This document shows positions 4,985 to 18,317 of a DNA stretch of 64,000 nt, in pieces. How positions within the stretch are numbered: the first letter of the stretch is position 1; each line of letters starts with the position of its first letter. Source of the DNA: Shinella sp. H4-D48 (GTDB taxonomy: Bacteria; Pseudomonadota; Alphaproteobacteria; Rhizobiales; Rhizobiaceae); the NCBI RefSeq assembly GCF_022637395.1, contig NZ_CP093337.1, forward strand, positions 186,001-250,000, in the 5' to 3' direction. The notes beneath the pieces are model-generated. The model did not search any database and was not told the DNA's origin. It saw only the letters and a program-made list of their open reading frames with translations. The translations under genes were made by a program, and so were the position numbers.

Positions 4985-7900
4985 TCAGGCCGCGTTCTCG
5001 CGGGCAGCCACCGGCACGTAGTTCAGCACCGGACCAAGCCAGCGTTCCACCTCGGAAACCGACATGTCCTTGCGGCGGGCGTAGTCCTCCACCTGGTCGC
5101 GCTCTACCTTGGCGACGCCGAAATAGTAGCTTTCGGGCGACGCGATGTAGAGGCCCGAGACGGAGGAGCCGGGCCACATGGCGTAGCTTTCCGTCAGCTC
5201 GACACCGATCTGCTTTCCCGCATCGAGAAGGCGGAAGAGCGTCGTCTTTTCGGTGTGGTCCGGCTGGGCGGGATAGCCCGGCGCCGGACGGATGCCGGCA
5301 TAGGGCTCGCCGATGAGGTCCGTGGGCGCAAAGGTATCGTCCGGCGCATAGCCCCAGAGTTCCTTGCGCACCACCTCGTGCATGCGCTCGGCGAAGGCTT
5401 CGGCAAAGCGGTCGGCCAGCGCCTTGACGAGGATCGAGTTGTAATCGTCGTTTGCCCGCTCGAAACGCTCGGCAATGGCGATCTCACCTATGCCGGCCGT
5501 CACGACAAAGCCGCCGAGATAGTCGGGCTTACCGCTGTCGACGGGGGCGACGAAATCGGAGAGCGCCACGTTCGGCCGGCCATCACGCTTGGAAAGCTGC
5601 TGGCGCAGCGTGAAGAAGGTCGCGAGCTCCTCGTCGCGCGCCTCGTTCGTGAAGAGCCTGATGTCGTCGCCCACGGTGCCGGCCGGCCAGAAGCCGACGA
5701 CGGCCTTCGGCGTGAACCACTTTTCAGCGATGATCTTTTCCAGCATCGCCTGCGCATCCGCAAACAGCTGACGGGCGGCCGGGCCCTGCTTCTCGTCGTC
5801 GAGGATTTTCGGATAGACGCCCTTCAGCTCCCAGGTCTGGAAGAACGGCGTCCAGTCGATGTAGCGGGCGAGGTCCGCCAGGTCCCAATCCTGCCAGACG
5901 CGCGTACCGAGGAAGGAGGGTGTTTTTGGCTGGTAGGCCGGCCAGTCGGCCCTGAAGGCGTTGTCGCGCGCCTTGCCGATCGGCAGGCGCTGCTTTTCGG
6001 CTTCGTTGCGTGCATGGGCGTCTGCGACCTTGCGGTACTCCGCCTTCAGCGTCTCGACGTAACCCGGCTTCATGTCGGCCGAGAGCAGGCTGCCGACGAC
6101 ACCGACGGCGCGGCTGGCATCGGTGACGTAGACGGTCTGGCCGCGGTCGTAGCGCGGGTGGATCTTGACGGCGGTGTGCACGCGGCTCGTCGTCGCCCCG
6201 CCGATAAGGAGGGGGATGTCGAAGCCCTCGCGCTCCATTTCGGCGGCGACATGCACCATCTCGTCGAGCGAGGGGGTGATCAGGCCGGAGAGGCCGATGA
6301 TATCGACCTTCTCGGCCTTTGCCGTCTCGAGGATCTTCGTCGCGGGCACCATGACACCGAGATCGATGATCTCGTAATTGTTGCAGGCGAGCACGACGCC
6401 GACGATGTTCTTGCCGATATCGTGCACATCGCCCTTGACGGTCGCCATCAGGATCTTGCCCGCGCTCTGGCGCTCGCCGCTGCCGCCGTTTGCGAGCTTT
6501 TCGGCCTCCATGTACGGCAGCAGCACGGCGACGGCCTGCTTCATCACCCGGGCGGACTTCACGACCTGTGGCAGGAACATCTTGCCTGCGCCGAACAGGT
6601 CGCCGACGACGTTCATGCCGGCCATCAGCGGGCCCTCAATGACATGCAGCGGGCGCTCGGCATTCTGGCGCGCCTCTTCGGTATCTTCTTCGACGAATTC
6701 GGTGATGCCGTTGACCAGCGCATGTTCCAGCCGCTTCTCGACCGGCCATTCGCGCCAGGCGAGATCGCGCTCCTTGGCTTCCTTGCCGGCCGCGCCCTTG
6801 AAACGTTCGGCGATGTCGAGCAGCCGCTCGGTGGCGGTGCCGCCGGCCTTCGGCTGACGGTTCAGCACCACATCCTCGCAGGCTTCGCGCAGATCGGCTT
6901 CGATCGTGTCGTAGACGGCGAGCTGGCCGGCGTTCACGATGCCCATATCCATGCCCGCCTGGATGGCGTGGTAGAGGAAGACCGCGTGCATCGCTTCGCG
7001 CACCGGCTCGTTGCCGCGGAACGAGAAGGAGAGGTTGGAGACGCCGCCCGAGATATGAACATGGGGCAGCGTGCGGGTGATCTCGGCGGTCGCCTCGATG
7101 AAGTCGACGCCGTAGTTGTCGTGCTCCTCGATGCCTGTCGCCACCGCGAAGATGTTGGGGTCGAAGACGATATCCTCGGGTGGGAGGCCGGCAACCTCCG
7201 TCAGCAGCTTATAGGCCCGTGTGCAGATTTCCACCTTGCGTGCCTTGGTATCGGCCTGTCCGGTTTCGTCGAAGGCCATCACGACGACGGCCGCACCATA
7301 GGCGCGCACGAGCCTGGCGTGGTGCAGGAAGGCTTCCTCGCCTTCCTTCAGCGAAATGGAATTGACCAGCGGCTTGCCCTGCACGCATTTCAGGCCGGCC
7401 TCGATCACCTCCCATTTCGAACTGTCGATCATCAGTGGAACGCGGGCGATATCCGGCTCGGCGGCGATGAGGTTTACATATTCCGTCATGGCGCGGGCGG
7501 AATCGATCAGGCCCTCGTCCATGTTGATGTCGATGATCTGCGCGCCGTTCGCGACCTGGTCTCGCGCCACGTCGAGTGCTGCCGCATAATCGCCGGCGGT
7601 AATCAGCTTGCGGAATTTCGCCGAACCGGTGACGTTGGTGCGCTCGCCGACATTCACGAAGGGGATGGCCTCGGTCAGCGTAAACGGTTCGAGGCCGGAC
7701 AGCCGCATATGACGCGGGATATCCGGGATTTCGCGGGGCGCATGGCGCGCGGCGGCAGCGGCAATGGCGCGGATATGGTCCGGCGTCGAGCCGCAGCAGC
7801 CGCCGACGATGTTGACCAGCCCTTCGCGCATGAAGCCTTCGATCTGCGCGGCCATTTCCTCCGGCGTCTCGTCATACTGGCCGAAGGCGTTGGGCAGGCC

Positions 7901-8776
7901 GGCATTGGGATAGGCGCAGACAAACGTCTGCGCGACGGCCGAAATCTCGGCGAGATGGGCGCGCATGGCATTGGCGCCGAGCGCGCAGTTCAGGCCGATG
8001 GAGAAAGGATCGGCGTGGCGCACGGAGTTCCAGAAGGCCTCCGGCGTCTGGCCGGAGAGCGTGCGGCCGGAAAGATCGGTGATCGTGCCCGATATCATGA
8101 CAGGCAGGTGGATGCCCTTTTCCTCATAAACCTCGCGGGTGGCGAAGATCGCGGCCTTGGCGTTCAGCGTGTCGAAGATCGTCTCGATCAGGATGATGTC
8201 GGCGCCGCCATCGATGAGGCCGCGCACCTGCTCGGCATAGGCGATGCGCAGATCGTCGAAGGTCACGGCGCGGTAGCCGGGATTGTTGACGTCGGGCGAG
8301 ATCGAGGCTGTACGGTTGGTCGGCCCCAGCGCGCCGGCGACGAAACGGCGCTTGCCGTCCTTCTGCTCGGCGCGCAGGCCCGCGCGGCGGGCGAGGCGGG
8401 CGCCGTCGCGGTTCAACTCATAGACCATGTCCTCCATGCCATAATCGGCCTGGGCGATGGTGGTGGAGGAAAACGTGTTGGTCTCGAGAATATCGGCGCC
8501 GGCGAGCGCATAGCGGTAATGGATGTCCTCGATGGCACCCGGCTGGGTCAGCGTCAGGAGGTCGTTGTTGCCCTGCTGGTGGCAGGCGCAGTCGCCGAAG
8601 CGATCGCCGCGGAAATCATCTTCCACCAGCTTCAGCGTCTGGATTTCCGTGCCCATCGCGCCGTCGAGCACGAGAATGCGCTCGCGGGCGGCAGCCTTGA
8701 GGGCAGCAAGGACTTCGCTTCCGTCGCGCGGCGGCTGTTCAGGGCCGAACAGGTCGTCCAGGTGGGAATTGGCCAT
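4985..8776 (-). CDS. metH: MetH, cobalamin-dependent methionine synthase
   Basis: 1263 residues from ATG 8774-8776, fixed by a GGAGG seven bases upstream; an in-frame ATG at 8800 has none. It transfers a methyl group from methyltetrahydrofolate through cobalamin to homocysteine. Domains in order: homocysteine domain with zinc ligands in GLNCALG (near 264) and GGCCGSTP (327/328); pterin-binding domain starting [18 protein letters not shown]12 cap; B12-binding domain with the axial histidine in [14 protein letters not shown] (near 784); C-terminal reactivation domain with a [12 protein letters not shown] segment. All modules are intact. It is the third element of the riboswitch, 71-aa gene, metH row. 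Confidence 0.98.
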
Positions 8777-8815
8777 GGGAGAACCCTCCGGTACTTTCAT
8801 TCAGTATCGGAGATC

Positions 8816-8835
8816 ACATAAAGATATCTTTATGT
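8816..8835. promoter_or_regulatory. 20-bp perfect palindrome upstream of metH (candidate SAM/SAH-regulator operator)
   Basis: ACATAAAGATATCTTTATGT reads the same on both strands and lies 40 bp before the metH ATG, between metH and the 71-aa gene. The core ATAAAGATATCTTTAT resembles, from memory, operators assigned to ArsR-type regulators of methionine/SAH metabolism (SahR/SamR group) in alphaproteobacteria. The palindrome is seen; the regulator is an inference, and no ArsR gene lies in the window. Confidence 0.6.
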
Positions 8836-8858
8836 CAACATATGTTTCGTGTGCTTGC

Positions 8859-9074
8859 CTAGTGCAGCGGTCCGTCCGCGCCGGCCAGCGATGTAAACAA
8901 GGCCTTCAGCCGTGCGATGTCGGGATCGGTATTGTCCAGCCGTGCGAGTTTCTGCACTTCCTTCAGCGCTTCGGCCGGGAGGTCCGCGCCGCGCGGCTGC
9001 CAGAGAAGCCAGGAAATGAACACGGATTCCGGCTTGCCGGTGCCCGACGCCTGATTTTCGGTGAGTTGAAACAT
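8859..9074 (-). CDS. Unrecognised 71-aa protein directly under a cobalamin riboswitch
   Basis: 71 residues, from ATG 9072-9074 to a stop at 8859-8861. I do not recognise the family. It has no signal peptide or membrane span; the N terminus is polar, a hydrophobic patch VFISWLLWQP lies at 18-27, and the rest is charged and helix-prone (LPAEALKEVQKLARL, then PDIARLKALFTSL). The start is supported by GGGGAAG five bases upstream. That site is buried in a 7-bp hairpin, and a B12 riboswitch lies about 110 bp upstream on the same strand. metH follows 82 bp downstream. Its context suggests a role linked to B12 or methionine, but function is unknown. Confidence 0.7.
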   Translation of the reverse strand: MFQLTENQASGTGKPESVFISWLLWQPRGADLPAEALKEVQKLARLDNTDPDIARLKALFTSLAGADGPLH

Positions 9075-9079
9075 GTCTT

Positions 9080-9099
9080 CCCCAATCGGATAATTGGGG
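9080..9099 (-). promoter_or_regulatory. Shine-Dalgarno-sequestering hairpin (likely riboswitch expression platform)
   Basis: On the minus strand CCCCAAT pairs with ATTGGGG around a 6-base loop. The second arm contributes GGGG to the GGGGAAG ribosome-binding site of the 71-aa gene (minus strand 9083-9077). Formation of this stem would block translation initiation, the usual way proteobacterial B12 riboswitches act. No U-tract follows, so it is not a terminator. Confidence 0.65.
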
Positions 9100-9182
9100 G
9101 ATGGCCGGACGCACGCTGCTGGTGGCCACTGTGTGCCATTGCAAGCGCACCCTTGGGACACCCCGCCCAGGTCGTTACAGGT

Positions 9183-9385
9183 ATCAGGGCAGGTCTCCTG
9201 GCTTGCGGGTCGTTGCGTCTGTCTGGCCTTCCCGGTGCGTGACACCAGTGGCGCGGAGCGACAGACGCTCGCCGTTCACAGTTGCGGGGGCAGCGCCGGT
9301 CTTGATGCGCAGGTCTTTGTTCCCTGCGGCTTCGCACCGGCTTCCCTCTTAGCCTCCGACCGTTCCCGATTCGGAAGACCCTGAC
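9183..9385 (-). promoter_or_regulatory. Cobalamin (AdoCbl-type) riboswitch aptamer
   Basis: Read on the minus strand this is a classical cobalamin aptamer. It has AGGGAAGCCGGTGCGA near its 5' part, then GCTGCCCCCGCAACTGTGAA, then GCCACTGG, GGGAAGGCC, and finally the B12 box AGCCAGGAGACCTGCC (plus strand 9189-9204). A closing P1 stem pairs TCAGGG (9384-9379) with CCCTGA (9188-9183). It faces the 71-aa gene and metH. Binding of adenosylcobalamin normally lowers expression of the downstream gene. Confidence 0.95.
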
Positions 9386-9420
9386 GCCGGCAACCTCGCG
9401 CTCCCCGGGTCTCGAGTCAA

Positions 9421-9803
9421 TGGCGGGCGGTTTGCATTCGGGCGGGAACCTTTTTTATCCCCCGCGCATTGTTGGTCCGCCTGCACCTCGCGCGGGCTCG
9501 CCTCATGTTCAGGATGAGCGATTCACCAAAACCGCAAATGAGGGTCCATGCTGCGCCATCCCGCCCTGTTGACAGGTTGCAAGTCTCTGTCCTTACGGCT
9601 AAAAAATGCCGTTTTCATGCACCACGCGGCGTGGATGTTAAACAGCGTGTCGCTTCAGCCAAAATCGCATTCGGAACGCCATGAGGGCGAGGTCGGGTGC
9701 CATGGCTGATCGCGACAGCAGAATGAAGCCCGCCCGCGAAAGACAATCCGGCGCAACGGCCGTTGCCGGGTGGCTCAACATGGCCGGTTCCAGAATCAGA
9801 AAC
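9421..9803 (+). other. Leader/promoter region of ndvB
   Basis: 383 bp between the 5' end of the divergent riboswitch transcript and the chosen ndvB ATG. I see no convincing gene. It holds an EcfG-like promoter candidate (9445-9470), a TTGACA hexamer at 9569-9574 with only a weak -10 partner, and in-frame ATGs at 9723 and 9780 that could be alternative ndvB starts. Confidence 0.5.
9445..9470 (+). promoter_or_regulatory. Candidate EcfG/RpoE2-type promoter upstream of ndvB
   Basis: GGAAC at 9445-9449 is followed after 19 bases by TT (9469-9470); as GGAAC-N17-CATT it misses one base of the GGAAC-N16/17-CGTT consensus for the alphaproteobacterial general stress sigma factor. It points toward ndvB, 334 bp away. 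A single near-match of this kind can occur by chance. Confidence 0.3.
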
Positions 9804-12800
9804 ATGTCCCTTCATACTCCGCCGCAAGCCTCCTCGCGCGATACCGATATCCGGCAGATCGATTATAACGATTCGATCCGCGCCACCTATCTGACGCTGG
9901 AGGAGCTCGCCGCGTGCGGCGAAGCGCTCGCCCGCGACAAGGCGGCGGTGCTTCCGGGCTTCCATCCCTTCGATTTCCGTGCACGGCACAAGGAAAACGA
10001 GAAGGAAATCTTCCGCGTCTATCAGGTCACGGCCAAGGATGTGGAGGCCGGCGCGCAGATCACGCCGGCGGCCGAGTGGCTGCTCGACAACTTCTATGTG
10101 ATCGAGGAAGCGATCCAGGAGGTCCGCCGCGACTTCCCCCGCCGCTTCTACCGGCAGCTCCCGACTGTCGAGATCGACGGTCAGTCGCTGCCGCGTACGC
10201 TGGCACTGGCATGGCTTTATGTCGCCCATACGCACAGCAGTGTCTCGCAGGAAAGCCTGACCGCTTTCGTGCAGGGCTTCCAGTCGGTCGATCCGCTGAA
10301 GATCGGCGAGCTCTGGGCGCTGCCGTCCTTCGTACGTTTCGTGCTCCTGGAGAACCTGCGGCGCATTTCCAGCCGCGTCGAGCGCTCCCGCAAGATGCGC
10401 TTCAAGGCCAATGACGTGGCCGACGAGCTGGTGCGTCTCAACGATCCGGAGAAGTCCATCGCGCATCTGCGCACCATCGAGAGCCTGACCGAGGACAACA
10501 CCTTCGTCGTCCAGCTTCTCTACCGCCTGCGCGATGGCCTTCAGACATCGGGTGCGGTCATCCAGTGGCTGGAGCGGAAGATCGAGAGCCGGGGCAGCGA
10601 CCTCGAGGAACTGATCGTGGCGGAAAACAACCGCCTGTCCTCCGGCAACGTGACCATGAGTTCGCTCATCAAAAGCCTGCGGTCGGTGGACGATGCGGAG
10701 TGGCCGGTCTGGTTCGAGAGCGTCAGCCGCCTCGACGAGGCGCTGCGCCAGCGCTCAGACTATAGCGATCTCGATTTCGGTTCGCGCAACAAGTACCGCA
10801 ACACAATCGAGCGTTTTGCCCGCCGTTCCGGCAAGAGCGAGCTGGAGGTCACCGAAACCGCGCTCGCCATGACCGAGGAAGACGCCGCGGCAAACGCGGG
10901 CGATCCCGATTATCGCGCCAATGTCGGCGCGTTTCTCGTGGGCAAGAAGCGCAAGCTGCTCGAAAAGCGCATCGGGTACCGTCCTACGCTCGTGCAACGG
11001 ACTGTCCGCGTGACACGCAAGCTCGACTGGCTCGCTATTGCCGGTCCCAACATCATCCTCACGCTTCTGGCGATGATCGCGGTCTATTATTTCCTCGACC
11101 AGCTCGACATCCCGAACGGTGCCTGGCTGATCATGCTCGTCCTGTTCGCGCTACCGGTCTCGGAGGGGGCGACGGGTCTGTTCAACACGCTCGTCACCTT
11201 CTTCGTCACGCCGTCACGGCTGGTCGGCTACGAGTTCAAGGACGGCATACCCGAGGATGCGCGCACGCTGCTCGTCGTGCCCTGCCTTATCTCGAAACGC
11301 GACCATGTCGATGAACTCGTGCGCAATCTCGAGGTCCATTACCTCGCCAACCCGCGCGGTGAGATTTATTTCGCGCTTCTCAGCGACTGGGCCGACAGCC
11401 AGAGCGAGGAAACGCCTGCCGATCTCGATGTTCTCGAATATGCCAAGCGTGAGATCGCCGAACTGTCGGCGCGCTACGCCTTTGACGGGCGCACCCGGTT
11501 CTACCTGCTGCACCGCCGCCGCCTCTACAATCCGTCGGAAGGCGCGTGGATGGGCTGGGAGCGCAAGCGCGGCAAGCTGCATGAGCTGAACCTGCTGCTG
11601 CGCGGCGATGGCGACACGACCTTCCTGCCGGGCGCCAATGTCGTGCCGTCGGACGTGAAATATGTCATGACGCTCGATTCCGACACGCGCCTGATGCGCG
11701 ATGCCGTGACCAAGCTCGTCGGCAAGATGCACCACCCGATCAACCGTCCCGTCATCGACGAGGCGACCGGCGAGATCACCGCCGGCTACTCGATCCTTCA
11801 GCCGCGCGTCACGCCGTCGCTTACGACTGGCAAGGAAGCCTCGACCTTCCAGCGCATCTTCTCCGCCGACCGCGGCGTCGACCCCTACGTCTTCACCGTT
11901 TCCGACGTCTATCAGGATCTGGCCGGCGAAGGCACGTTCACCGGCAAGGGGCTCTACCACGTCGATGCCTTCGAGGCCGCCGTGAAGGGCCGCATCGAGG
12001 AGAACTCGGTGCTCAGCCACGACCTGCTCGAAGGCTCGCTGTCGCACTGTGCGCTGGTGACCGACGTGGAGCTCGTCGAGGACTTCCCGACCCGCTACGG
12101 CGTGGAGACCTCGCGCCAGCATCGCTGGGCCCGCGGCGACTGGCAGCTCCTGCCCTATCTTTTCGGCCCGTCGAGCGGCATTTCCATGCTCGGCCGCTGG
12201 AAGATGTACGACAACCTGCGGCGCAGCCTCATCCCCATCGCCTGGCTCGTCGCCTCGGTCATGGGCTGGTACTATATGGAGCCGCGCCAGGCGCTGATCT
12301 GGCAGCTGGTGCTTATCTTCCTGCTCTTCGTCGCACCAACGCTCTCGCTCATTTCGGGCCTCATGCCGCGCAGCAGCGATATCGTGGCGCGCGCCCATGT
12401 GCATCGCGTGTTCTCCGATATCCGCGCGGCCAACGCGCAGGTGGCGCTGCGCATCGCCTTTATCGCGCATTCCGCCGCACTGATGGGCGACGCCATCGTG
12501 CGCTCGCTCTACCGTACCTTCGTCAGCCGCAAGATGATGCTGGAGTGGCGCACCGCCGCCCAGGCCGACAGCGCGGCGCGTGGCGGTATCCTCGATCACT
12601 ACAAGGCGATGTGGCAGGCCCCGGCGCTGGCGGTGGTTTCCGTCGCGCTTGCCATGATCTCCAAGACTGGCCTGCCCTTTATCGGCGTGCCCTTCGCCCT
12701 CGTCTGGATGCTGTCGCCGATGATCGCCTGGTCCGTCAGCCAGACGGCGGAGACGGAAGACCAGCTCGTCGTGTCCGATCATGTCGCCAGCGAACTGCGC

Positions 12801-15800
12801 AAGATCGCACGGCGCACCTGGCGCTATTTCGAGACCTTCGTCACCGCCGAGCAGCACTTCCTGCCGCCGGACAATTTCCAGGAAACGCCCAATCCGGTCC
12901 TGGCCGAGCGCACCTCGCCGACCAATATCGGCGTCTATCTGCTCTCGGTGATTTCGGCGCGCGATTTCGGCTGGATCAGCTTCGAGGAAACGGTGCGCCG
13001 GATGGAGCAGACCATCGCCACCATCGACGGCATGCCGAAATACCGCGGGCACCTGTTCAACTGGTATCGCACCAACACGCTGGAAACGCTCGGACCACGG
13101 TATGTCTCGGCGGTCGACAGCGGCAACCTTGCCGGCCACCTCATTGCCGTATCCTCCATGTGCCGCGAATGGGCGGAGGCGCCCTCGGCGCATCTGCAGG
13201 GCAGCCTCGACGGCATCGGCGATGTCGCCGCCATCCTGTCGGAGGCGCTCAAGCAGCTGCCTGACGACCGCAAGACGGTGCGCCCGCTGCGCCGTCTCGT
13301 GGAGGAGCGCATTGCCGGCTTCCACAACGCGCTCGCCGCCGTCAAGCGCGAGCACGAATTCGCTTCCATCCGCGTCATCAACCTCGCGGTCCTGGCGCGT
13401 GACATCAACAAGCTCATCGTCAATCTCGACCATGAGGTAAAGTCGCCGCAGACCGGCGAGGTGGTGCATTGGGCGGGCGCGTTGGTCGCGACCTGCGAAG
13501 CGCATATTGCCGACAGCGTCTTCGACCTCGGCAGCATCGAGCCGCTGCGTGCGCGGCTCGGCGTTCTGCGCGACCGCGCACGCGACATCGCGTTCTCCAT
13601 GGATTTCGGCTTCCTGTTCCGTCCGGAACGGCGTCTCCTGTCGATCGGCTACCGCGTCGAGACCAACGAGCTGGACGAGGCCTGCTACGACCTGCTCGCC
13701 TCGGAAGCACGCCTCACGAGCCTGTTCGCTATTGCCAAGGGCGATCTGCCCACCGAGCACTGGTACAAGCTCGGCCGTCCGGTCGTGCCGGTCGGTTCGC
13801 GTGGTGCGCTGATCTCCTGGTCCGGCTCGATGTTCGAATATCTGATGCCGCCGCTCGTCATGCAGGAGCGCCAGGGCGGCATCCTCAACCAGACGAATAA
13901 TCTCGTCGTGGTCGAACAGATGAACCACGGCCGCCGGCTGGGCACGCCTTGGGGCATTTCGGAAGCGGCCTTCAACGCCCGCGACCACGAACTGACCTAC
14001 CAGTACACCAATTTCGGCGTGCCGACGCTCGGCCTGAAGCGCGGCCTCGGCCAGAACGCCGTCATCGCGCCCTATGCCTCGCTGCTCGCCGCGCAATATG
14101 CGCCGAAGGAAGCGCTCGAGAACCTCGAGCGGCTGCGCAAGCTCGGCGCGCTCGGCATCTACGGTTTCCACGACGCCGTGGACTTCACGCCGACCCGCGT
14201 GCCGGAGGGCAAGACCTGCGCGGTGGTGCGCAACTACATGGCCCACCACCACGGCATGTCCATCGCCGCCGTTGCCAACGTCGTTTTCAACGGCGCGCTG
14301 CGCGAACGTTTTCATGCCGATCCGGTCATCGAGGCGGCCGAACTGCTCCTGCAGGAGAAGGCGCCGCGCGACATTCCCGTCATCAACGCCAAGCGCGAGC
14401 CGGAAACCGTCGGCAGCACGCGGGCCGACCTGCTTCGCCCGGAAATCCGCATCTTCAAGGACCCGATCAATCGCGAGCGCGAGACCGTCTTCCTGTCGAA
14501 CGGCCATTACTCCGTGATGCTGACGGCAACCGGTGCCGGCTATTCGCGCTGGAACGGCCAGTCCGTCACGCGCTGGAAGCCCGATCCCACGGAAGATCGC
14601 TGGGGCTCCTTCCTGTTCCTTCGCGATACCGCGACGAACGAGTGGTGGTCTGCCACCGCCGAACCGAAACGAGTAGAGGACGAGGAGACGAAGACCCAGT
14701 TCGGCGACGACAAGGCGGAATTCCTCAAGACCATCGGCACGCTGACCAGCGAGGTCGAGGTCATCGTCGCCACCGAGCATGATGCCGAAGGCCGCCGACT
14801 GACACTCGTCAACACGGGTACGGAGGACCGCTTCATCGAGGTAACGTCCTATCTGGAGCCGGTCATTGCGACCGACGATGCCGACAGCGCGCATCCGCTC
14901 TTTTCGAAGATGTTCATCCGCACCGAGATCGACCAGCGCGGCGACGCAATCCGCGCGGAGCGCCAGAAGCGTCATCCCAACGAGCCCGACATGGCGATCG
15001 CCCATCTCATCGTCGACAATGCCGGCCCCTCGCGCCGCACCGAGATCGAGACGGATCGCCGACGCTTCATCGGTCGTGGCCGTTCGCTTGCGACCGCGGC
15101 AGCCTTCGATGCCGGCGCGCAGCTGTCCGGCACGGATGGCTTCACGCTCGATCCGATCATGGCGCTGCGCCGCGTCGTGCGCGTTCCCGCCGGCAAGAAG
15201 GTCAAGGTCATCTTCTGGACCATCGCTGCGCCGACCCGCGCGGATGTGGATGCGGCTATCGACCGTTATCGTCACCCGGATAGCTTCAACCATGAAATGA
15301 TCCATGCCTGGACGCGCTCGCAGGTGCATATGCGCCATGTGGGTGTGACCTCGCAGGAGGCGGCGAGCTTCCAGATGCTCGGCCGCTATCTCACCTATCC
15401 CGACCTGCACCTGCGTGCCGATACCGGCACGATCCAGACCGGCCTGACATCCCAGTCGGCGCTCTGGCCCATGGCGATTTCGGGCGATTTCCCGATCTTC
15501 GTGCTGCGCATCAACGACGAGATCGATCTCGATGTCGCCCGCGAGGCGCTGCGCGCGCAGGAATATCTGCGTCATCGCGGCGTCACGGCGGACCTCGTCA
15601 TCCTCAACGAGCGCGCGGCGTCCTATGCGCAGGACATGCAGCACACGCTCGATCAGATGTGCGAGAACCTGCGCATGCGCGGCCAGTCGGACGGCGTGCG
15701 CCAGCACGTCTTCACGGTGCGCCGCGACCTGATGGATGTCACGACCTGGCAGGCCCTGCTGGCAGCGGCTCGCGCCGTCTTCCACGCCCGCAACGGCTCG

Positions 15801-18317
15801 CTTGCCGACCAGATTGCCCGCACGGTCTCCCTCTTCTCATCGCCCCCGCGTGGCGACGACGAAACGAAGACCGAGGCTCTGCCGGCCACGGCCAAGCCGT
15901 CGCCGGCTGCCGTTACCGCTTCGCTCCCCGCTCCGGTCGCGATCGATGGAAACGGCCTGTCCTTCTGGAACGGTTTCGGCGGCTTCAATGCCGACCGCCG
16001 CGAATATGCCGTGCGCCTGCGCGGCGGCGAGGCAACGCCGCAACCGTGGATCAACGTGATTGCAAACCGCGAATTCGGCTTCCATGTTCCGGCTGAAGGC
16101 GGTGGTTTCACCTGGAGCCGCAATTCGCGCGACTACCAGCTCACGCCCTGGACCAACGATCCTGTCATCAACCGTCCCGGCGAGGCCTTCTACGTGCGCG
16201 ATCGTGACAGCGGCATGGTGATGACGCCGTTCGCCGCGCTGTCGCGCAAGACGTCGGTCAAGTTCGAGACTTGGCACGGCCTCGGCTACACCGCCTTCCG
16301 CAGCTGGGAGGACGGTATCGAACTCGACCTCGTGCAGACGGTGGACCCGGAAGACCCGGTGAAATATTCGCGCCTCGTCGTGAAGAACACCGACGAGACC
16401 GAACGCCGCCTCTCCGTCTACGGCTATGTCGAATGGGTGCTGGGTAACAACCCCACCAAGACCGCACCCTTCGTGCTGACCAGCCATGACGAGGAAAGTG
16501 GCGCGCTCTTCGCGACCAATCCCTACAGTCTCGACTTCGCCGGTCGGACCAGCTTCTTCGGCGTCGATGCGCCGTTGTCCGGCTTCACGACATGGCGGCG
16601 GGACTTTATCGGCCGCACCGGCGACATTGTGACTCCGGCGGCGCTGTTCACCGGCCAACCCCTGTCGGGTGCGGCCGACGGCATTAGCGATCCATGCGCG
16701 GCGCTCTCCGTCGATCTCGTTCTGAAACCCGGCGAAAAGCGCGACCTGCTCTTCGTGCTGGGCGATTCTGCCGATGCCGATGGTGCCCGCGCGCTTGCCG
16801 GGAAGAGCCGCAAGGCCGATTTCGATGCCGTCATGGCGTCGGTGCGTTCGTTCTGGGAAGGCTTCACCGGCACTCTGCAGGTCAAGACGCCCGACCCGGC
16901 GCTCGATCGCATGCTCAACGACTGGCTGCCCTACCAGGCGCTCGGCTGCCGCATCATGGCACGCACGGCCTTCTATCAGGCGAGCGGCGCCTACGGTTTC
17001 CGTGATCAGTTGCAGGACACGCTGGCCTTCATCCTGCACCAGCCGGACCTCGCGCGTGCGCAGATCCTGAACGCTGCCGCGCGCCAGTTCGTCGAGGGCG
17101 ACGTGCAGCACTGGTGGCTGCCCGATAGCGGGGCGGGTGTACGCACCATGATCTCGGATGATGTGGTTTGGCTTGCTCACGCGGTCGAATATTACTGCCG
17201 CGTCACCGGCGACCGTGGCGTGCTGGACGAACGGCTTGCCTTCATCGAAGGCCCGCCGCTTGCCGAGGGACAGCACGATTCCTTCTTCAAACCGGGCCGT
17301 TCGGCCGAGGATGCATCGCTTTACGAGCATTGCGCCCGTGCGCTCGATCTGGCGCTTGCCCGAACCGGCGAAAACGGCCTGCCGCTCATTCTCGGCGGCG
17401 ACTGGAATGACGGCATGAACCGCGTCGGCGAAGCCGGCCGCGGCACGAGCGTCTGGCTGGGCTGGTTCCTTGCCGGCACGCTGCGCGCCTTCATCCCGCT
17501 CGCGCGCGAACGGGGCGACGGCATTCATGCCGAGGCTTGGGAAATCCACCTCGATCGCCTCAAGCAGGCACTGGAAACGGCAGGGTGGGACGGCGCCTAC
17601 TACCGGCGCGGCTATTATGACAACGGCGCGCCGCTCGGCACATCCGACAGCGCCGAATGCCGCATCGATTCCATCGCGCAGAGCTGGAGCGTTCTGTCCG
17701 GCGAGGGGGACGCCGACCGCTCGCGGCAGGCGATGGACGCGGTCATGGCCGAACTGGTCGACCGGCAGAACGGGATTATCCGCCTGTTCACGCCGCCGCT
17801 TGTCGAAACCACGGAAGACCCGGGCTATATCAAGGCCTATCCGCCCGGCGTGCGCGAGAATGGCGGGCAATATACCCATGCGGCGACCTGGGTGGTGATG
17901 GCGCTGGCGCGTCTCGGCCGGGGGGATGAAGCCTTCGCCTGCCTCGACCTGCTCAATCCGGTCAAGCATGCGCTCGATGCACAGGCGGCGGAACGCTACC
18001 GCGTCGAGCCCTATGTCGTGGCCGCCGATGTCTATGGCGAAGGCGAGCGTGCGGGGCGTGGCGGATGGTCCTGGTACACCGGCTCGGCCGGCTGGCTTTA
18101 CCGTGCCGCCGTCGAGGGCATTCTCGGCATCCGCAAGGAAGGCGGCCGTCTCTTCGTCGAACCCGTCCTGCCGGAAGCCTGGAACGGCTACAGCGCGACG
18201 CTGGTGCTCGATGGCCGCAAGCTGACGCTGCGTGTGGATCGCGGGGATGACGGCGGATGGCAGGCAACAATAAACGGCTCTGTCATCAAATCTTCAAAAG
18301 AGGGCTATTTGCTCTGA
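9804..18317 (+). CDS. ndvB: NdvB/ChvB, cyclic beta-1,2-glucan synthase
   Basis: About 2837 residues, close to Sinorhizobium NdvB (about 2830). This inner-membrane enzyme primes, elongates and cyclises beta-1,2-glucan from UDP-glucose. Order: soluble N terminus; membrane segments near 410-480; glycosyltransferase core with YVMTLDSDTRLM (near 620) and QHRWARGDWQLLPY (near 770); further membrane segments near 820-1000; glycoamylase-like region with NYMAHHHGMS; GH94 phosphorylase-type C-terminal region with its catalytic-acid motif GGDWNDGMNR near 2530. The start is chosen at MSLHTPPQ; ATG 9780 and 9723 or the codon at 9681 are alternatives. opgC follows within 25 bp. Confidence 0.96.
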   Translation: MSLHTPPQASSRDTDIRQIDYNDSIRATYLTLEELAACGEALARDKAAVLPGFHPFDFRARHKENEKEIFRVYQVTAKDVEAGAQITPAAEWLLDNFYVIEEAIQEVRRDFPRRFYRQLPTVEIDGQSLPRTLALAWLYVAHTHSSVSQESLTAFVQGFQSVDPLKIGELWALPSFVRFVLLENLRRISSRVERSRKMRFKANDVADELVRLNDPEKSIAHLRTIESLTEDNTFVVQLLYRLRDGLQTSGAVIQWLERKIESRGSDLEELIVAENNRLSSGNVTMSSLIKSLRSVDDAEWPVWFESVSRLDEALRQRSDYSDLDFGSRNKYRNTIERFARRSGKSELEVTETALAMTEEDAAANAGDPDYRANVGAFLVGKKRKLLEKRIGYRPTLVQRTVRVTRKLDWLAIAGPNIILTLLAMIAVYYFLDQLDIPNGAWLIMLVLFALPVSEGATGLFNTLVTFFVTPSRLVGYEFKDGIPEDARTLLVVPCLISKRDHVDELVRNLEVHYLANPRGEIYFALLSDWADSQSEETPADLDVLEYAKREIAELSARYAFDGRTRFYLLHRRRLYNPSEGAWMGWERKRGKLHELNLLLRGDGDTTFLPGANVVPSDVKYVMTLDSDTRLMRDAVTKLVGKMHHPINRPVIDEATGEITAGYSILQPRVTPSLTTGKEASTFQRIFSADRGVDPYVFTVSDVYQDLAGEGTFTGKGLYHVDAFEAAVKGRIEENSVLSHDLLEGSLSHCALVTDVELVEDFPTRYGVETSRQHRWARGDWQLLPYLFGPSSGISMLGRWKMYDNLRRSLIPIAWLVASVMGWYYMEPRQALIWQLVLIFLLFVAPTLSLISGLMPRSSDIVARAHVHRVFSDIRAANAQVALRIAFIAHSAALMGDAIVRSLYRTFVSRKMMLEWRTAAQADSAARGGILDHYKAMWQAPALAVVSVALAMISKTGLPFIGVPFALVWMLSPMIAWSVSQTAETEDQLVVSDHVASELRKIARRTWRYFETFVTAEQHFLPPDNFQETPNPVLAERTSPTNIGVYLLSVISARDFGWISFEETVRRMEQTIATIDGMPKYRGHLFNWYRTNTLETLGPRYVSAVDSGNLAGHLIAVSSMCREWAEAPSAHLQGSLDGIGDVAAILSEALKQLPDDRKTVRPLRRLVEERIAGFHNALAAVKREHEFASIRVINLAVLARDINKLIVNLDHEVKSPQTGEVVHWAGALVATCEAHIADSVFDLGSIEPLRARLGVLRDRARDIAFSMDFGFLFRPERRLLSIGYRVETNELDEACYDLLASEARLTSLFAIAKGDLPTEHWYKLGRPVVPVGSRGALISWSGSMFEYLMPPLVMQERQGGILNQTNNLVVVEQMNHGRRLGTPWGISEAAFNARDHELTYQYTNFGVPTLGLKRGLGQNAVIAPYASLLAAQYAPKEALENLERLRKLGALGIYGFHDAVDFTPTRVPEGKTCAVVRNYMAHHHGMSIAAVANVVFNGALRERFHADPVIEAAELLLQEKAPRDIPVINAKREPETVGSTRADLLRPEIRIFKDPINRERETVFLSNGHYSVMLTATGAGYSRWNGQSVTRWKPDPTEDRWGSFLFLRDTATNEWWSATAEPKRVEDEETKTQFGDDKAEFLKTIGTLTSEVEVIVATEHDAEGRRLTLVNTGTEDRFIEVTSYLEPVIATDDADSAHPLFSKMFIRTEIDQRGDAIRAERQKRHPNEPDMAIAHLIVDNAGPSRRTEIETDRRRFIGRGRSLATAAAFDAGAQLSGTDGFTLDPIMALRRVVRVPAGKKVKVIFWTIAAPTRADVDAAIDRYRHPDSFNHEMIHAWTRSQVHMRHVGVTSQEAASFQMLGRYLTYPDLHLRADTGTIQTGLTSQSALWPMAISGDFPIFVLRINDEIDLDVAREALRAQEYLRHRGVTADLVILNERAASYAQDMQHTLDQMCENLRMRGQSDGVRQHVFTVRRDLMDVTTWQALLAAARAVFHARNGSLADQIARTVSLFSSPPRGDDETKTEALPATAKPSPAAVTASLPAPVAIDGNGLSFWNGFGGFNADRREYAVRLRGGEATPQPWINVIANREFGFHVPAEGGGFTWSRNSRDYQLTPWTNDPVINRPGEAFYVRDRDSGMVMTPFAALSRKTSVKFETWHGLGYTAFRSWEDGIELDLVQTVDPEDPVKYSRLVVKNTDETERRLSVYGYVEWVLGNNPTKTAPFVLTSHDEESGALFATNPYSLDFAGRTSFFGVDAPLSGFTTWRRDFIGRTGDIVTPAALFTGQPLSGAADGISDPCAALSVDLVLKPGEKRDLLFVLGDSADADGARALAGKSRKADFDAVMASVRSFWEGFTGTLQVKTPDPALDRMLNDWLPYQALGCRIMARTAFYQASGAYGFRDQLQDTLAFILHQPDLARAQILNAAARQFVEGDVQHWWLPDSGAGVRTMISDDVVWLAHAVEYYCRVTGDRGVLDERLAFIEGPPLAEGQHDSFFKPGRSAEDASLYEHCARALDLALARTGENGLPLILGGDWNDGMNRVGEAGRGTSVWLGWFLAGTLRAFIPLARERGDGIHAEAWEIHLDRLKQALETAGWDGAYYRRGYYDNGAPLGTSDSAECRIDSIAQSWSVLSGEGDADRSRQAMDAVMAELVDRQNGIIRLFTPPLVETTEDPGYIKAYPPGVRENGGQYTHAATWVVMALARLGRGDEAFACLDLLNPVKHALDAQAAERYRVEPYVVAADVYGEGERAGRGGWSWYTGSAGWLYRAAVEGILGIRKEGGRLFVEPVLPEAWNGYSATLVLDGRKLTLRVDRGDDGGWQATINGSVIKSSKEGYLL

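Follow-up and report, generated by a model that had tools for sequence, protein, structure and literature searches.

Why should a riboswitch for cobalamin (B12) stand beside metH, the gene of a B12-dependent methionine synthase, with a 71-codon open reading frame (ORF) in between, and what does it control? B12 riboswitches serve to assign genes to B12 metabolism, and this one is found in Shinella sp. H4-D48, in a stretch of 64,000 nucleotides (NZ_CP093337.1, positions 186,001 to 250,000) that was analyzed as a whole and is called the window here. Its minus strand carries, in this order, the aptamer, a short hairpin, a hairpin over the SD of the ORF, the 71-codon ORF, a gap of 82 nt and metH.

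A B12 riboswitch ahead of a small gene

The elements of the riboswitch unit are the following.

9171-9398, minus strand: cobalamin (B12) riboswitch aptamer RF00174 (Infernal, full model 1-189)
9284-9294, minus strand: aptamer L5 loop GCTGCCCCCGC (sequence)
9155-9168, minus strand: P13/L13-type hairpin GGGCGGGGTGTCCC, predicted kissing-loop partner of L5 (sequence and complementarity)
9080-9099, minus strand: SD-sequestering hairpin with arms CCCCAATT and GATTGGGG (folds of 18 Shinella-type leaders and of two window states)
8859-9074, minus strand: 71-aa gene of a new family tied to B12 riboswitches (ATG at 9074, stop ends at 8859)

An earlier note, made from the letters alone, had placed the aptamer, the SD hairpin and the start of the small protein on one strand, with the small gene immediately upstream of metH. 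This arrangement is borne out by the covariance model (124.9 bits against a gathering score of 31.5), by the SD (GGGGA, 9083-9079) ahead of the ORF at 9074-8859, and by the short gap before the metH start at 8776. The small gene, and not a known B12 synthesis or transport gene, is the direct target, as had also been proposed.

CCCCGC of the L5 loop (9289-9284) is complementary to GCGGGG of the next hairpin (9168-9155), and the loop feature was present in all 34 riboswitches compared. An L5/L13 kissing pair is usual in corrinoid riboswitches as described in PMC10653944, and by analogy with these the 9168-9155 hairpin would be the kissing partner of L5. Besides this complementarity, the window riboswitch has an expression platform over the SD. 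The SD overlaps the 3' arm of the 9099-9080 hairpin, and the motif CCCCCAAT...ATTGGGG occurs in 18 of 18 Shinella-type leaders. CATCCC (9103-9098), on the 5' side of this hairpin, can alternatively pair with GGGGTG (9164-9159), which is the default fold in six of the 18 leaders (L005, L012-L016).

With B12 bound, L5 would pair with L13 (GCGGGG), the CCCCAAT arm would be free to cover the SD, and the protein would not be made. With B12 absent, the GGGG stretch would pair with CATCCC and the SD would be released. The direction of this switch is suggested by the sequence, the energies being undecided; by the usual sign of cobalamin riboswitches, the small protein would be made when B12 is scarce. 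The fold energies of the window leader (-38.9 kcal/mol free, -35.1 when L13 is blocked, -36.4 when the ON pairing is forced) separate the two states poorly, and the SD was unpaired at 0.19, 0.18 and 0.44, respectively. These values are compatible with the switch model and are no proof of it. The riboswitch itself is ordinary, and the novelty is the small-protein family behind it.

Two other features of the window may be recorded here. A divergent plus-strand ORF (9681-18317, 2878 aa), whose product we take to be an NdvB-like cyclic beta-glucan synthase, has its 5' end facing metH, with the riboswitch and the small gene between. A ybhL leader (RF00520, 52473-52578, minus strand) scored 50.6 bits against a gathering score of 50.

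A SahR-type operator between the small gene and metH

8833-8838, minus strand: TTGACA, possible -35 of a separate metH promoter (sequence conservation)
8817-8834, minus strand: CATAAAGATATCTTTATG, perfect palindrome, SahR-type operator (genome site search)
8787-8811, minus strand: hairpin covering the metH SD GGAGG at 8789-8785 (covariation, 19 sequences)
4985-8776, minus strand: metH, B12-dependent methionine synthase (Pfam, NCBIfam)

The metH start is most likely the ATG at 8776, as the ATG at 8800 lies upstream of GGAGGG; the longer metH frame scored 2160 bits with the MetH equivalog. The palindrome was found at six sites of the genome (up to 3 mismatches), against none for a reversed control. 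For five of the six sites the gene context was read, by eye from translations: metH, an ArsR-type regulator followed by a metF-like gene, a BHMT-like gene (which was matched in a search too), an ahcY-like gene, and the region upstream of the metE riboswitch. The palindrome is common to SAM-cycle genes of this genome. A SahR regulon is known in rhizobia (PMC4239095, PMC8877191), and the metH palindrome, judged by its sequence, belongs to it.

The metE site lies in a region of the same genome (L126, C1:2544000-2558500) that has three B12 riboswitches in 9 kb, preceding metE, an nrdH-/nrdE-/nrdF-like cluster and a formaldehyde-dehydrogenase-like gene (all but metE named by eye); the SahR-type palindrome is upstream of the metE riboswitch there.

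TTGACA occurs in 18 loci that carry the small gene and in four that lack it, and TTGACATAAAGATATCTTTATGTGA, between the small gene and metH, was near-invariant in 18 loci with the small gene and again present in four without. Four same-genus genomes without the protein (G002, G003, G005, G020) are also without a riboswitch at metH, and they keep metH and its SahR-type operator. Elsewhere these genomes have four to six riboswitch matches at E ≤ 0.001, one to four of them over the gathering score. Since the riboswitch and the small gene are absent together, they appear to be present or absent as a pair in these Shinella-type genomes. metH is probably driven from a SahR-type promoter of its own in the 82-nt gap.

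A hairpin over the metH SD

By eye, no terminator is evident in the gap upstream of metH, and transcription may continue into metH. On transcripts that come from the riboswitch unit, the hairpin at 8811-8787 may block ribosome access to metH; were transcription from the metH promoter to begin within this hairpin, silencing would be confined to the long RNA. These elements allow an alternative of the long-undecoded-transcript type. Riboswitch read-through would cover metH, and the hairpin would leave the long transcript poorly translated; B12 shortage would then lower metH, and the short transcript from the SahR promoter would supply metH when B12 is present.

This alternative draws on the covariation of the hairpin, six pairs of which were changed on both sides among 19 Shinella-type and near-relative leaders; the hairpin was not reported by Rfam at gathering thresholds. 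It also draws on the folds of the 51 nt before metH, which we compared in 57 of 61 candidate metH leaders (L203, L209 and L222 were dropped as duplicates, and L085 for want of a start). The median was -19.4 kcal/mol in the 27 leaders with the small gene versus -9.4 in the 30 without (Mann-Whitney p 1.6e-6; p 0.04 after collapse to 9 versus 28 groups), with the reservation that the SD was unrecognised in 15 of the 57 and that some folds take in part of the operator palindrome. Folds are weaker too (-6.7 and -10.3) in the four Shinella-type genomes that lack the small gene, but these represent two near-identical pairs, and their metH SD is still predicted to be mostly paired (0.92 and 0.80). Exceptions occur in both directions: five leaders fold strongly despite having no small gene (L206, L208, L212, L216 and L223, -15.4 to -20.8), and three fold weakly despite having one (L018, L080 and L161, -4.9 to -10.5). 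The window's own copy has an A.C mismatch, is weaker than most, and reaches only -12.7. The hairpin thus tends to greater stability where the small gene is upstream, with exceptions, and we see a lowering of metH on B12 shortage, by read-through, as a minority possibility. In the reading that we prefer, the riboswitch serves the small gene and metH is driven separately.

The family and its riboswitch link

Within a first sample of 61 genomes, 20 had a small-protein match. A riboswitch was found within 1.5 kb in 19 of the 20 fetched loci, and metH likewise in 19; locus L019 is a GbcB-linked copy, with the riboswitch 2.5 kb upstream and without metH in 8 kb. Among named relatives of the protein, the closest belong to Shinella. 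Of the same-genus genomes, 11 of the 17 that carry the protein have full-length MetE versus none of the four that lack it, these being few and related genomes.

We searched 297 Rhizobiaceae genomes in six frames with a 19-row profile that was blind to riboswitches, and inspected the surroundings of all 64 matches. RF00174 was found upstream on the same strand in 57 of the 58 matches with E ≤ 1.6e-5, and the remaining strong match (L105) stops at a contig end. The 57 are made up of eight Shinella-like or related loci, 47 of 48 widely fetched loci, one further metH locus (L043) and a degenerate second copy (L135). For scale, 5 kb downstream of each of eight riboswitches amounts to about 0.4% of both strands of a 4.77-Mb genome. 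The six weaker matches include one real family member behind riboswitch-nrdAB (G249, L161) and one degenerate match without a riboswitch within 10 kb (G262, L160, E 0.003); the other four (G081, G132, G082, G168), with neither motif nor riboswitch, were discarded as chance.

The distribution of the family is patchy, with 17 of 21 same-genus genomes (the window's own counted), 59 of 297 Rhizobiaceae genomes and 9 of 397 genomes in an order-wide search. All five strong matches outside Rhizobiaceae, in three other families, were behind riboswitches. In G510 the small gene is preceded by riboswitch, GbcA-like and GbcB-like genes, in G458 by the same pair and one more gene, and in G446 and both G495 copies by a riboswitch and Btu-like genes; in the G495 loci (L153, L154), crude gene calling gave one or two ORFs on the opposite strand within the riboswitch-small gene interval. 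Of two weak order-wide matches (G654, G599), G654 has no riboswitch and looks like chance. Three weak matches outside the order (G970, G792, G811; E 8e-6 to 1.6e-4) were also without a riboswitch. These small alphaproteobacterial proteins (L157-L159) have an F-L-x-W...P-x-G-x-D-like pattern and no Pfam match.

The expectation that orthologues always lie between a cobalamin riboswitch and metH was therefore right about the riboswitch, as the 57 of 58 strong matches demonstrate, and right about metH for one part of the family only.

Partner genes and operon types

The 48 distant, widely fetched loci fall into few types. In 27 the order is riboswitch, GbcA-like, GbcB-like, small gene; 16 have the riboswitch directly before the small gene; four have NrdA-NrdB before the small gene, with the riboswitch ahead of nrdA; and one is a GbcB type truncated by a contig end. 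By crude gene calls, in the 43 of 48 loci that had both riboswitch and small gene in the first fetch, no opposite-strand gene separates the two. A 4-nt overlap of the chosen small-gene start with the GbcB stop is seen in 8 of the 27 GbcB-type loci. Same-strand downstream neighbours of the small gene include metH, BtuF-like, BtuB-like, CobF and GbcA-like genes.

The partners thus vary between GbcA/GbcB-like betaine demethylase, NrdAB, CobF, BtuB/F/C and metH. NrdAB substitutes for B12-dependent NrdJ, the Btu and Cob genes supply B12, and GbcAB-type demethylation needs oxygen. Representative GbcA-like and GbcB-like proteins scored 519 and 371.8 bits, these being their best library matches, versus curated equivalog cut-offs of 670 and 500, and are called "like" for this reason. 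Operons of this pair under B12 riboswitches were seen in L128, L077, L095, L150, L151 and others. A B12-dependent MtgBCD route for glycine betaine, with genes also in Sinorhizobium meliloti, is described in PMC12478193, and the riboswitch-governed GbcA-like/GbcB-like operons look like a B12-independent alternative to it.

B12 shortage is the common thread of these partners. Their variety argues that the small gene is a member of a B12-shortage regulon and not a metH accessory as such, and the small protein probably contributes to the way these bacteria handle a lack of B12.

How the small gene probably came to stand beside metH

Two Phyllobacterium plasmid records, read for gene order only, have nrdA-nrdB-hypothetical protein-cobF-metH and nrdA-nrdB-hypothetical protein-metH. 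Over its first 175 nt, the leader of locus L108 corresponds to the nrdA leader and start of G292 (80.9%), and over positions 195-293 to the nrdB end and small gene of G292 (87.9%). By these matches, nrdAB has dropped out of L108, the small gene remaining under the riboswitch ahead of metH. The Shinella leader showed no remnant of nrdA.

A tree of 59 proteins, built from few columns and with many open forks, its middle branch being weak, places the Shinella-type copies in a half with four of the five nrd-type copies and eight distant metH-linked copies. Four gbc-type copies fall in this half too, and one nrd-type copy falls in the other. The five nrd-type copies are unclustered (5 changes versus a shuffled mean of 4.9), and copies of one genome (G330, G570) fall in different parts of the tree.

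We infer that an ancestral operon of riboswitch-nrdA-nrdB-small gene-(cobF)-metH would have lost nrdAB and so left the small gene beside metH, a placement that Shinella has probably inherited. Such a loss accounts for this unusual position better than a control of metH by B12 does.

The small protein

The earlier note could place the protein in no family, and the searches agree: neither the 71-aa protein nor its family has a significant match in Pfam, NCBIfam or PDB. The best database match of a single member had E 0.005, and such matches were scattered; a plasmid search gave no match to a GbcB-linked family member, and we found no description of the family in searches of an open-access library. 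An AlphaFold2 model from 22 sequences has three helices (14-24, 32-44, 51-64), with 35 residues at pLDDT ≥ 90, a mean of 78.3 and pTM 0.65; Foldseek found nothing for it at E ≤ 0.001 in PDB or viral models. Across 53 family members, F19, W22, L23, P27, D31, A36 and L56 are near-invariant, and these positions contain no catalytic or metal-binding pattern, which favours a binding role. A C-terminal histidine is present in 18 of 18 Shinella-type proteins; it is not general across the family, and the argument for it as a cobalt ligand was dropped for that reason.

With low confidence, we suggest that the three-helix mini-domain most likely binds another protein during the shift from B12-dependent to B12-independent enzymes. 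A small adaptor, used as cells leave B12-dependent enzymes, is our best guess for its role. A wider form of this idea would make the family a riboswitch-governed adaptor that marks B12 shortage, binds B12-dependent enzymes or their partners, shifts metabolism to B12-independent routes and moves between operons under B12 riboswitches, with read-through and the SD hairpin perhaps lowering MetH synthesis at metH. In this full extent we find it rather doubtful.

The protein could instead act directly on MetH, for example by holding or reactivating apo-MetH at low B12. metH is the next gene in Shinella and in 6 of the 48 distant loci, and lies one gene further in two more; the Phyllobacterium records contain a small gene-metH arrangement too. 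Against this stand the 28 GbcA/GbcB-type loci among the 48, in none of which metH is next, the separate operator of metH, and the four Shinella-type genomes that have metH and lack the protein. A direct action on MetH is unlikely on this evidence. The small gene as a specific helper or leader of metH, which the earlier note had put forward, finds support neither in the gene order of those 28 loci nor in the SahR-type operator.

Selection on the reading frame

On another reading, the 71-codon ORF would be a leader (uORF) that is translated in order to tune metH or decouple it, like the uORFs at the B12 switches of Mycobacterium tuberculosis. In Shinella and several of its relatives the ORF does sit between the riboswitch and metH, and the gap has no evident T-rich terminator by eye. 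However, conservation acts on the protein sequence. Orthologues and codon conservation, which had been named as a check on the ORF, were both found: 18 orthologues (17 from the same genus and one from another genus) gave dN/dS 0.26 over 153 pairs (mean dN 0.19, dS 0.72). The homologues in GbcA/GbcB-type operons are without metH next to them, the gap with its SahR-type operator and TTGACA separates the ORF from metH, and metH retains the operator region where the riboswitch and the ORF are gone. A leader peptide of metH was rejected on these grounds, and we consider it very unlikely.

A chance open frame in a GC-rich leader, where further frames are open too, can be dismissed, given that selection is specific to this frame (the same alignment has pN/pS 1.4 and 2.0 when read in the other two forward frames), that the family is wide with a common motif, and that an SD precedes a consistent start in the Shinella-type loci. 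The 71-codon ORF is a real gene.

Together, the above observations are best explained by a B12-repressed riboswitch that controls translation of a genuine small protein, perhaps adaptor-like and part of a Rhizobiales B12-shortage regulon, beside a separately driven metH. We give this reading as a whole a probability of about 0.7. It accounts for a B12-repressed element beside a B12-dependent gene without B12 shutting off metH. An unannotated family behind B12 riboswitches makes a clear candidate for a component still missing from the response of rhizobia and their relatives to B12 shortage, and the small gene is a small, easily deleted target.

Comparison with known systems

The window element is like the usual RF00174 riboswitches in its aptamer score, L5/L13 complementarity and SD hairpin. 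Their usual targets are synthesis, transport or isozyme genes, whereas the target here is the gene of an uncharacterised small protein. With metE and nrdAB isozyme operons under B12 riboswitches the small gene would share its control, as it is often their last gene. Unlike the other genes of such operons, it encodes a protein that matches no enzyme family, and it remains behind the riboswitch where the isozyme genes have been lost, in L108 and probably also in Shinella.

The SahR regulon, as far as it is described in PMC4239095 and PMC8877191, agrees with the presence of the same palindrome at metH, the regulator/metF-like pair and the ahcY-like, BHMT-like and metE genes. Shinella differs from that description in carrying a B12-riboswitch gene just upstream of the metH operator.

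The metE and ppe2 B12 switches of Mycobacterium tuberculosis have translated uORFs (PMC11260477). They are alike in that a short translated frame lies beside a B12 switch, and one of the two serves a methionine-synthase gene, metE. Compared with these uORFs as that source presents them, the Shinella frame belongs to a conserved protein family that occurs in many operons, and metH has its own operator and no stop/start overlap with the small gene.
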